From Acidobacteriota bacterium (GTDB lineage: Bacteria; Acidobacteriota; Aminicenantia; Aminicenantales; Saccharicenantaceae): 64,000 nt of DNA. Below, one piece after another: positions 5,697 through 8,957 of this stretch. Under the pieces are notes generated by a model. It saw only the letters and a program-made list of their open reading frames with translations, was not told the origin of the DNA and did not search any database. Numbering within the stretch: the first letter of the stretch is position 1; every line of letters begins with the position of its first letter. Location: NCBI GenBank assembly GCA_039683095.1, contig JBDKSB010000001.1, positions 574,567 to 638,566 on the forward strand, given 5' to 3'. Position numbers and translations under genes: made by a program.

Positions 5697-5725
5697 ATCA
5701 TAGGGGAGGGCCGGAGGGTTGTCAA
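5697..5725 (-). promoter_or_regulatory. Strong sigma-70-like promoter for the exported O-methyltransferase
   Basis: On the minus strand TTGACA (5725-5720), a 17-bp spacer and TATGAT (5702-5697) form one of the best promoter matches in the window. It ends 19 bp before the ATG at 5678, which supports that start. Confidence 0.65.
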
Positions 5726-5728
5726 ACG

Positions 5729-5757
5729 GGGGGCACGGGCCCGTCGCCCGTGCCCCC
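5729..5757 (-). terminator. Terminator-like hairpin after the selenoprotein gene
   Basis: A perfect 12-bp inverted repeat (GGGGGCACGGGC / GCCCGTGCCCCC) with a CCGTC loop sits 7 bases beyond the stop codon of the selenoprotein gene and directly before the next promoter. There is no clear T run, but the stem is long and very GC-rich. Confidence 0.6.
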
Positions 5758-5763
5758 TTGACG

Positions 5764-7317
5764 CTATTTCTTGGCCATGGCTTCCTGGATCTGCTTGACG
5801 AGGTTCTCGTATTGCTGGATCGGGAAGCCCTCATATTTAGCGGCCATCGGCTTGACCAGCTCGACGGCCTTCTCCGCGGCCTTGAGGGCCTCGGGGTAAT
5901 CCTTCAGCTTGAACAGGACCTGGGCCAGGACGAAGTTGTTGTAATAATCGGAGGTCAGCTCGACCGACCGCTTGGCCGCGGCCAGGGCGCTGTCCAGGTT
6001 CGTCCCCTGGCGGTTCCAGAAGCCGGCATAGCTCGCCAGGGCCCCCTGATCGTCCCAGTTCTTCTTGGCGATCTCCGGGCCGTAGACGGCCAGGGCCTTG
6101 TCTCCCTTCTTGAGCTTGCCGAAGATGCCGGCCACCTGGGACAGGAAGTAGGCCGGGGCCTCCTTCATGGCGCCGATGCCGGCCGCCGCGATATCAGCCG
6201 CCTCCTCAGCGCTGTCGAGGTTCCGGCCCTGGTCGATCCAGAAGCTGGCATAGCCGGTCAAGGCGGAGATCACGCTCGTGACGTAGCTCGAGGCGAAATC
6301 CTGGCCGTATTCCTCGTCGGCCTTGGCCGCATCCTCCTTGAGCGCGTAGAGCTGGGCCAGGTTCTGCTGGTAGTCCGGGTTGGGGGGATAGCCGGCCATC
6401 TCCTGGAGCTTGAGGGCCAGCCCGATGCCCTTGTCGAGCGGGTCCTTGTCCTTGATGATGCGCTCGACATAGCCGTTGAGCGCGGACTTGTTGTCCGGGT
6501 ACTTGGCCGTGTACTCGTCGAAGAACTTGTCCGCATCTTCCTTGACGGCCACTTGGCCATAGTAATAACCGAGGTAAGCATATGCGTTCTTGACGAACGG
6601 GCTGTTCGGGCGCTTCCCGATGAAGGCCCGGAGGGGCGCCGGGTCGGGCTTGCGGCCGAAGGCGGCCGCCTGGCCGAGCGCGAATTCGGCGGCCTCGACG
6701 TAGGGCACCGTGGCCTTGAGATTCTCGTCATAGAAGGAGGCCGTCCGGCCGTCGATGTCCATGGTCAGGATCTTCTTGTAGAGATCCTGGGACCGGGCCG
6801 TCAGCGCGTCGGAATAACGCTCGCTGCATTTCTCGGCCAGCTTGTAGGCGACTTCGATGTTGGCCGGGTCCTTGGCGTAGAGCGCGTTCAGGGAGGCGTA
6901 GGTGTCGATGCCGGCCAGCGACTTCTTGACCCGTTCGAGGCGCTTGTCGGCGGGCGGGCCGTAGCCGACGATCCAGTCGACCTCCTGGCCGTTCTTGTCG
7001 ACGAAGAGCTCCGTCGGGGTGGCGTTGATCTTGAACCGCTCGTAGATCGCGTCCCCGATCTTGTCGCCCCGGGTGGCCCGGTAGAGGATGACGTTCTTGT
7101 TGAGGAAATCGGCGTACTTGGGATTGTTGTAGAACTGCTGAACCAGCAGTCTGCAGCTCCCTCAGCCACCCGAGTAGAAATCGAGCAGGATGAGCTTGTT
7201 CTCTTTCTTGGCCTTGGCCAGCGCCTCGTCGAAAGGTCCGGAGAGGACCGTCGCCGTCTGGGCGGCGGCGAACGCGGCGACGAGGAGGAGGCTGGCGAAC
7301 GCGGCAACCTTCTTCAT
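5764..7317 (-). CDS. Selenoprotein: exported thioredoxin-like domain (UGSC) with C-terminal TPR-like region
   Basis: One frame from the ATG at 7317 to the stop at 5764 codes 517 residues if the single in-frame UGA (7164-7162, codon 52) is read as selenocysteine. Residues 1-19 are a signal peptide. Then comes a thioredoxin fold: KLILLDFYSGG, the redox motif U52-G-S-C55 where relatives have CxxC, and the cis-Pro strand NATPTELFVDKNG. From about residue 150 on the protein is helical with tetratricopeptide-like repeats. The frame is uninterrupted on both sides of the UGA and both halves are needed to complete the fold. A SECIS-like hairpin follows the UGA. The start is set by AGGAGG 6 bases before the ATG. 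A conventional caller would report a 51-residue stub plus a headless protein from 6762. The likely role is extracytoplasmic thiol-disulfide or peroxide chemistry. Confidence 0.86.
7134..7150 (-). promoter_or_regulatory. Bacterial SECIS-like hairpin downstream of the selenocysteine UGA
   Basis: On the minus strand ACTGCTG-GTT-CAGCAGT forms a perfect 7-bp stem (8 with a G-U pair) with a GUU loop. The first loop base is 19 nt after the UGA. The E. coli fdhF SECIS also puts its GGU loop 19 nt after the UGA, and published bacterial SECIS models ask for a G at the start of a small apical loop. The stem lies in coding sequence (RLLVQQF). Confidence 0.7.
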
Positions 7318-7351
7318 GTCGACCTCCTGCGGATTCGGTCTCGCGTGACGA

Positions 7352-7380
7352 AGAATACAGGATGCGGCGGACACGGTCAA
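7352..7380 (-). promoter_or_regulatory. Sigma-70-like promoter for the selenoprotein gene
   Basis: On the minus strand TTGACC (7380-7375), 17 bp and TATTCT (7357-7352) precede the ATG at 7317, leaving a leader of about 28 bases that contains AGGAGG. Confidence 0.55.
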
Positions 7381-7511
7381 GACCTTTTCGGTCCCGGTCC
7401 TGCCGGGCCCTCGAGGGAGCGGCAGGCCAAAAAGGCGCCGGGCGCCCGGGCCGCGTTGCAACGGCCGGCCGCGCATGCTAACATCATTCCGAGTCCGCCA
7501 AGGAGCGAGCG

Positions 7512-8957
7512 ATGTCGAACGTCGATGCGATGCCCTCCGAAGCCGACCGGAGGGAAAAGCGCGGGGCCGCCTGGAGCTCCGTCGGCGCGGCCGTCTGCCT
7601 GACCGGGATGAAGCTCGTCGTCGGGCTACTGACCGGATCGCTGGGCATCCTGGCGGAAGCGGCGCATTCCGGCCTCGACCTCGTGGCCGCGGTCGTCACC
7701 CTGGTCGCCGTCAGCATCTCGGACCGGCCGGCCGACGAAGGCCATCCGTACGGCCACGGCAAGATCGAGAACTTCTCGGCCCTCATCGAAACCGTCCTGC
7801 TCTTCGTCACCTGCGCCTGGATCATCTATGAGGCCGTCGAGCGCATCTTCTTCCGCCCGGTGCCGGTCGACCCGAGCCTCTGGGCTTTCCTGGTGGTCGT
7901 CGTCTCGATCGCCATCGACGTCACCAGGTCCCGGATGCTCCTGCGGGCCGCCCGGAAGCACCGGAGCCAGGCCCTCGAGGCCGATGCGCTGCACTTCTCG
8001 ACCGACATCTGGAGCTCGGCAGTCGTTCTCGTCGGCCTGGTCCTCGTCTGGACCGGCAAGAACGTCGCCCCGAAGCACGCCGCCGTGCTCAACCGGGCCG
8101 ACGCGGTGGCCGCCCTGGGCGTCGCCGTGCTCGTCCTTTTCGTCAGCTACAAGCTGGGCAAGCGGACGGTCAACGTCCTGCTCGACAGCGCCCCCGACGG
8201 GCTCAGGGACAAGATCGCGGCGGCCGCCGGCGCGGTCGAAGGCGTCATCAAGGCCGGCCAGGTCCGGCTCCGCCGCTCCGGCCCTCAGGTCTTCATCGAC
8301 ATGACCATCGAGGTCGACCGCAACCTGACGGTCGAGCGGACCGACGCCATCGCCAGCGGCGTCGAGGCCCGCATCCAGGGCCTTGTCCCCGGCGCCGATG
8401 TCGTCGTTCACACCGATCCCGGCGAGGTCGAACGGGAGAACCTGGCCCGGCGCATCCGCGGCATCGCCGAGCGGAACCAGATCCCGGCCCACAACATCAG
8501 CGTCCACGAGGAAAACGGCGAGATCCACGTCGATCTGCACATCGAGGTCGACGATCATCTCCTGCTTCACCAGGCCCACGATCTGGCCAGCCACGTCGAG
8601 CAGGACCTCCGGGCCGAGATCCCGACCCTGGCCCGCGTCACGACCCATATCGAATCGCGCGGCACGGGCGTCTCGACCGGCCGGGACGTCACGGCCGAGG
8701 AGGGGCCGCTCGTCGAGCGGATCAGGACCGTCACGGACGTCGTGGCCGGGCGGGCCTGCTGCCACAGCATCGTCGTCCGCCGCCTGGGCGATCGGCTGGC
8801 GGTCTCCCTCCACTGCGGCTTCGACCGGAACCTGCCGGTCCGGGAGGCTCACCGGACGTCGACCCGGATCGAGGAAGCCCTGAAGGCCGCCGTCCCCGAG
8901 ATCGAACAGGTCGTCGTCCATACCGAGCCGGAGCAGCGGCCCGATGGGACCCGATAA
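7512..8957 (+). CDS. Cation diffusion facilitator with three C-terminal domains
   Basis: This 481-residue protein is a CDF-family divalent metal/proton antiporter of the inner membrane. About six helices span residues 20-215. The metal-site signatures are HSGLD in TM2 and HFSTD in TM5, with a His-containing loop HPYGHGK after TM2. The cytoplasmic part is unusual: instead of one dimerisation domain (about 80 residues) there are three tandem copies, recognisable from their related closing strands VVVHTDP (about 305), VTTHIES (about 384) and VVVHTEP (about 473). It overlaps the following YbaK gene by 14 bases. The transported metal (Zn, Fe, Mn or other) cannot be read from sequence alone. Confidence 0.9.
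   Translation: MSNVDAMPSEADRREKRGAAWSSVGAAVCLTGMKLVVGLLTGSLGILAEAAHSGLDLVAAVVTLVAVSISDRPADEGHPYGHGKIENFSALIETVLLFVTCAWIIYEAVERIFFRPVPVDPSLWAFLVVVVSIAIDVTRSRMLLRAARKHRSQALEADALHFSTDIWSSAVVLVGLVLVWTGKNVAPKHAAVLNRADAVAALGVAVLVLFVSYKLGKRTVNVLLDSAPDGLRDKIAAAAGAVEGVIKAGQVRLRRSGPQVFIDMTIEVDRNLTVERTDAIASGVEARIQGLVPGADVVVHTDPGEVERENLARRIRGIAERNQIPAHNISVHEENGEIHVDLHIEVDDHLLLHQAHDLASHVEQDLRAEIPTLARVTTHIESRGTGVSTGRDVTAEEGPLVERIRTVTDVVAGRACCHSIVVRRLGDRLAVSLHCGFDRNLPVREAHRTSTRIEEALKAAVPEIEQVVVHTEPEQRPDGTR

Follow-up and report, generated by a model that had tools for sequence, protein, structure and literature searches.

An In-Frame TGA at a Thioredoxin Active Site Points to an Exported Selenocysteine Thioredoxin-TPR Oxidoreductase in Aminicenantes

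Thioredoxin-like UxxC selenoproteins are well known as a class. E. coli CnoX is a cytosolic protein, shorter than the one described below and devoid of selenocysteine (Sec). Cytosolic CnoX/YbbN has been described as a chaperedoxin that combines a thioredoxin (Trx) domain with tetratricopeptide (TPR) repeats (PMC6282202, PMC8129009). A 2026 inventory counts 119 prokaryotic selenoprotein families or subfamilies, and neither "TPR" nor "tetratricopeptide" occurs in its text; the entry nearest to the present case (Table 1 therein) is a thiol:disulfide interchange protein, the PF13098 UxxC selenoprotein family (PMC13188914). In the window analyzed here, a stretch of 64,000 nucleotides from an Aminicenantales bacterium (GCA_039683095.1), we investigated a frame in which TGA occupies the first position of a thioredoxin active site (Table 1). 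The evidence set out below makes it very probable that this frame encodes an exported, UGA-decoded selenocysteine thioredoxin-TPR oxidoreductase.

Table 1. Features of the selenoprotein locus, in coordinates of the window.
Feature	Position	Strand	Basis or remark
Selenoprotein gene, 517 codons + TAG, codon 52 TGA read as Sec	5764..7317	-	
In-frame TGA, predicted Sec52 of U-G-S-C	7162..7164	-	TGA in 47/47 distinct family frames
Probable signal peptide (MKK, hydrophobic core, AFAAA/Q)	7261..7317	-	Sequence inspection
Thioredoxin-like domain, residues 27-136, with UxxC and cis-Pro motif ATPT	6910..7239	-	
TPR-type helical repeat tail, residues 140-517	5767..6900	-	Family profile, structure
bSECIS-like hairpin, 8 bp, loop GUU	7133..7151	-	Conservation, covariation, bSECIS rules
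AGGAGG ribosome-binding site	7323..7328	-	
Sigma-70-like promoter TTGACC-17-TATTCT	7352..7380	-	9/12 consensus matches
12-bp GC hairpin 3' of the stop, short T run	5729..5757	-	-31.5 kcal/mol, z -4.4

As stated in the preliminary description of this DNA, the frame is interrupted by one TGA only, which replaces the first Cys of a thioredoxin CxxC motif. A coding signal was confirmed on both sides of it. GC contents at codon positions 1/2/3 are 0.63/0.41/0.88 before the TGA and 0.60/0.38/0.91 after it, the profile of coding sequence in a GC-rich genome, and dN/dS is below 1 on either side in comparison with three relatives (for example 0.045/0.21 upstream and 0.090/0.24 downstream). Standard gene calling would split such a gene at the TGA. 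A reading with translation table 11 does end at 7162, and ordinary genes in the window also terminate in TGA; that the codon is a true stop, leaving a pseudogene split in two or a short peptide with an independent ORF downstream, is nevertheless very improbable, as purifying selection acts on both sides, the same TGA is kept at 26-85% identity across several phyla, the SECIS element described below covaries and read-through restores the whole fold. A sequencing error at 7162-7164 is excluded because independently assembled relatives with 44-85% identity have the same TGA, and the frame is unbroken in the homologues.

On the opposite strand, a 627-aa ORF (5719-7602, +) is open and longer than the sense frame, yet the probability that it is the real gene is practically negligible. 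Its codon-position GC of 0.86/0.44/0.62, compared with 0.60/0.38/0.90 in the sense frame, and its lack of conservation mark it as a GC-rich shadow. In many relatives it is interrupted, by as many as 20 stops, no conserved family was seen on the plus strand, and the Pfam and structure matches belong to the sense frame.

Within the family, the gene was found in 10 of 34 genomes, and each copy spanning the site has exactly one TGA. Extraction from the order, the phylum and a named genome collection yielded 47 different frames, in which 40 different TGA contexts occur. Codon 52 is TGA in all 47; in the 32 aligned members, TGA at this codon is accompanied by invariant Cys55, Pro101 and Thr102. More distant full-length Trx+TPR relatives (about 430 aa; L109, L110, L120, L123) have Cys at the site, so that an alignment for Cys at codon 52, as suggested earlier, separates close relatives with TGA from distant ones with Cys. 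The named hosts are Candidatus Aminicenantes and Acidobacteria MAGs and, beyond these, a Calditrichaeota MAG (L047), an unplaced bacterium (L048) and a Neomarinimicrobiota MAG (L049), all three with selA. The family extends through Aminicenantes and beyond them into at least Calditrichota and Neomarinimicrobiota.

Tandem duplication has given several genomes two to four copies of the gene. Three to four tandem copies, each with an in-frame TGA, are found in L043 (5962-10713), L143 and G178:C101:25527-31979. Directly upstream of tandem selenoprotein genes lies an OsmC-like (PF02566) gene (L040:5374-5802; similar in L034 and L042). Other thioredoxin-like genes with TGA at CxxC were also observed (L112, L116, L119, L124, L071, L074, L077, L078, L080, L084, L085) in other Acidobacteriota, Nitrospirota, Fimbriimonas, Zixibacteria and actinobacterial MAGs; these are probably further selenoproteins of the PF13098 class.

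A bSECIS-like hairpin begins 10 nt 3' of the TGA. Published bSECIS rules give a stem of 4-16 bp, a loop of 3-9 nt with G in the first two positions, a location 16-37 nt after UGA and an MFE of at most -7.5 (PMC13188914); the hairpin agrees with 8 bp, a GUU loop located 18 nt after UGA and -10.1 kcal/mol. Since a different fold competes in a longer RNA segment, the case for the hairpin is built on covariation and not on energy. Its inner seven pairs form at 38 of the 40 distinct sites; elsewhere in the same genes, only 16 of about 21,770 in-frame windows form them, and pairing falls from 94% to 16-63% if the partner is slid by 1-3 nt. Upon a change from Gln to Glu the closing pair switches from G-C to C-G. 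The opposite Leu codon is CTG in 29 Gln sites and CTC in 8/8 Glu sites and the combinations are never crossed, while both codons are about equally used across these genes. Further changes are CTG...CAG to TTG...CAA in two separate lineages (L032/L131/L136; L048) and A-U to C-G in L142. The coupling of the Leu wobble position with Gln or Glu goes beyond what protein coding alone explains. Conservation and covariation thus indicate that this hairpin directs Sec insertion, with UGA codon 52 being decoded by SelB and tRNA-Sec. Short of chemistry, Sec insertion at codon 52 appears near certain.

The search for selA, selB, selC and selD proposed in the preliminary description returned the Sec machinery: selA, selB, selD and tRNA-Sec are all present in the source genome, with selD and selB beside selA and the tRNA-Sec gene about 13 kb away. 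Together with the conserved TGA and the Cys in distant relatives, this supports the original selenoprotein reading. The covarying hairpin, the connection with the sel genes and the occurrence in further phyla go beyond the preliminary description. Across 94 genomes of the order, 29 have both the gene and selA, 4 only the gene, 6 only selA and 55 neither (Fisher p 3e-14, with kinship ignored). The genomes with the gene thus contain selA in 29 of 33 cases, and those with no selA match (G012, G418, G421, G454) are mostly fragmented or incomplete assemblies. Several Cys-only genomes in other Acidobacteriota families also have selA, so the Cys/Sec-versus-selA control there carried no information. 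An open frame alone cannot discriminate Sec from another amino acid (Trp, Gly or Cys) inserted by general recoding or readthrough. We regard the latter as highly unlikely, given that TGA also serves as a stop in the window, the Sec machinery is complete, a SECIS is present, Cys is found at the site in distant relatives and the gene co-occurs with selA.

In some genomes the gene is part of the sel cluster. L140, L141 and L145 show the order selA-selD-gene-selB, with the gene between selD and selB on the selA strand, and in L142 it neighbors selA-selB in convergent orientation. Because the gene lies inside the sel cluster in these genomes and tracks selA, it offers a testable reason why uncultured lineages keep selenocysteine.

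Several further observations were made around the sel genes. In L144 (G418:C1:668000-678000), from a relative with a single-contig assembly, selB is kept, the gene copy is matched from about residue 109 on, no selA match was obtained and a run of N lies nearby, pointing either to an assembly flaw or to decay of the Sec trait. SelD (L027:12780-14039 (-), L140:8063-9259, L141, L145) carries an N-terminal Cys-rich extension, CICNPK.PCPC...NVCLCAGERL, which precedes the usual GCASK active site and is conserved between distant genera. Downstream of the selenoprotein gene, the sel cluster encodes a 676-aa protein that apparently carries a signal peptide (L140:4206-6233 (-), L145:3366-5396 (-)), for which no Pfam or NCBIfam match was found with the L140 copy.

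The domain structure of the protein was investigated with profiles and structure prediction. According to its N-terminus the protein is probably exported; the signal peptide region is conserved in the family and exhibits low pLDDT at residues 1-18. The following domain belongs to the thioredoxin-like superfamily, as it scores 40.7 bits with PF13098 and 33.7 bits with PF13899 (curated cutoff 27 each) and UxxC and the cis-Pro are invariant in 32 sequences. Modelling of the read-through frame with AlphaFold2 from the 32-sequence alignment gave a mean pLDDT of 93.1. In this model, a strand (42-48) and a helix (53-63) flank residue 52 in a thioredoxin-like manner, and residues 140-517 form helical repeats. 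The proposed TPR tail is clear in the family profile and the predicted structure, but stays below the Pfam single-repeat cutoffs in this protein. Among solved structures, the sequence profile of the tail retrieved TPR proteins, and that of the head 2KUC, thioredoxins and DsbD-gamma. For residues 10-143 structure matching (VIA Z) gave DsbH (16.6), 2KUC (15.1) and DsbD-gamma (14.0), and the Trx+TPR arrangement was matched by E. coli YbbN/CnoX (3qou) at Foldseek rank 14.

On this basis, the mature protein would be a Thioredoxin_2/7-class oxidoreductase near DsbH, DsbD-gamma and the 2KUC disulfide isomerase. Alignment and model suggest that Sec52 attacks, Cys55 resolves and Pro101 acts as the cis-proline, and partners or unfolded clients probably bind to the long TPR superhelix. 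As its role, we infer most likely disulfide exchange in the cell envelope, with the direction of reduction or isomerisation slightly favoured.

In several genomes, a small exported DsbD-alpha-like protein (PF11412; for example L027:15461-16021) with an invariant YQxCxDxxC is encoded beside the sel genes. In L140 and L141 its gene separates the selenoprotein gene from selB; in L142 it precedes selA, and in the source genome it lies immediately 5' of selA. This protein would be the best candidate for a redox partner, and a relay between the two is plausible, although somewhat short of probable. The DsbD_TM/CcdA membrane domain PF02683 gave no match in the source genome (95% complete), and a PF13386 match considered as membrane electron donor proved to be a NicO-like protein, which leaves a reductive relay without a source of electrons. 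These findings suggest a Se-based way of handling envelope disulfides in bacteria that possibly have no DsbD. More tentatively, the Sec-thioredoxin-TPR protein and the free-standing DsbD-alpha-like protein might constitute a two-component, sel-linked and Se-dependent envelope redox module that is a main reason for Aminicenantes lineages to keep Sec and has grown in some of them to three to four selenoprotein genes in tandem.

Alternatively, the main function of this selenoprotein might be that of a chaperedoxin in the envelope, with the TPR tail holding unfolded clients and Sec52/Cys55 protecting or repairing their thiols in the manner of cytosolic CnoX/YbbN. Thioredoxin plus TPR is the CnoX architecture, as reflected in the YbbN match, and tandem gene expansion would fit a diversity of clients. 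By profile and structure, however, the domain is nearer to DsbH, 2KUC and DsbD-gamma, and the probable export and the DsbD-alpha-like link point to electron relay. A predominantly chaperedoxin function consequently seems rather unlikely to us, and the two roles are compatible with each other.

Within the window, the selenoprotein gene stands alone between a cation-efflux gene and an O-methyltransferase gene, one on each side, with its own promoter-like site and hairpin, and in the source genome it does not adjoin the sel genes. The AGGAGG reported before the start is present. The "strong promoter" of the preliminary description exists as a sigma-70-like site, yet its strength is worded generously because the site matches only 9/12 consensus positions. 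The hairpin 3' of the stop, described earlier as a terminator, is real, but the T run after it is short and the terminator scan did not include it. An Rfam scan of the whole window at the gathering threshold and a search of a plasmid collection gave no match.

The 2026 inventory and the NCBIfam search, in which no model was matched over its cutoff, are in line with the earlier statement that this is not a described standard family. Related thioredoxin-like domains occur in the Trx7/PDZ selenoprotein NF041199 and the rhodanese/DsbD selenoprotein TsoB (NF045694), which are also selenoproteins but differ by CxxU or UxxxxU motifs and other partner domains; the match to TsoB covers only its DsbD-like end (36.6 bits, cutoff 805). 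The UGSC-containing protein NF041046 gave no match at E up to 1, and the four letters in common appear to be a coincidence. In the open-licence literature, we found no Trx-TPR selenoprotein and no paper joining "selenoprotein" and "Aminicenantes".

The PF13098 UxxC selenoprotein family of the inventory shares the Pfam thioredoxin-like class, the UxxC motif and a single Sec with the protein described here, but is listed without a TPR tail or sel-cluster context, a comparison made by table entry. CnoX/YbbN (3qou) likewise has a thioredoxin domain followed by TPR repeats, whereas the Sec protein probably starts with a signal peptide and its thioredoxin-like domain is closer to DsbH and DsbD-gamma. 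The gamma domain of DsbD (1uc7, 2fwe, 1vrs) is an exported thioredoxin-like CxxC domain, and here the sel genes have a DsbD-alpha-like gene as neighbor; in contrast to DsbD, the Sec protein has no membrane domain (PF02683), contains Sec for the first Cys and carries an additional TPR tail. DsbH (2ju5) and the putative disulfide isomerase from Bacteroides (2kuc), the closest solved folds of residues 10-143, are single domains without such a tail. As the text of the inventory makes no mention of TPR and no NCBIfam model was matched over cutoff, the protein is a new architecture, absent from the inventory, within a known kind, the UxxC thioredoxin-like selenoproteins. With this class being well known, the novelty lies in architecture and context and not in principle.
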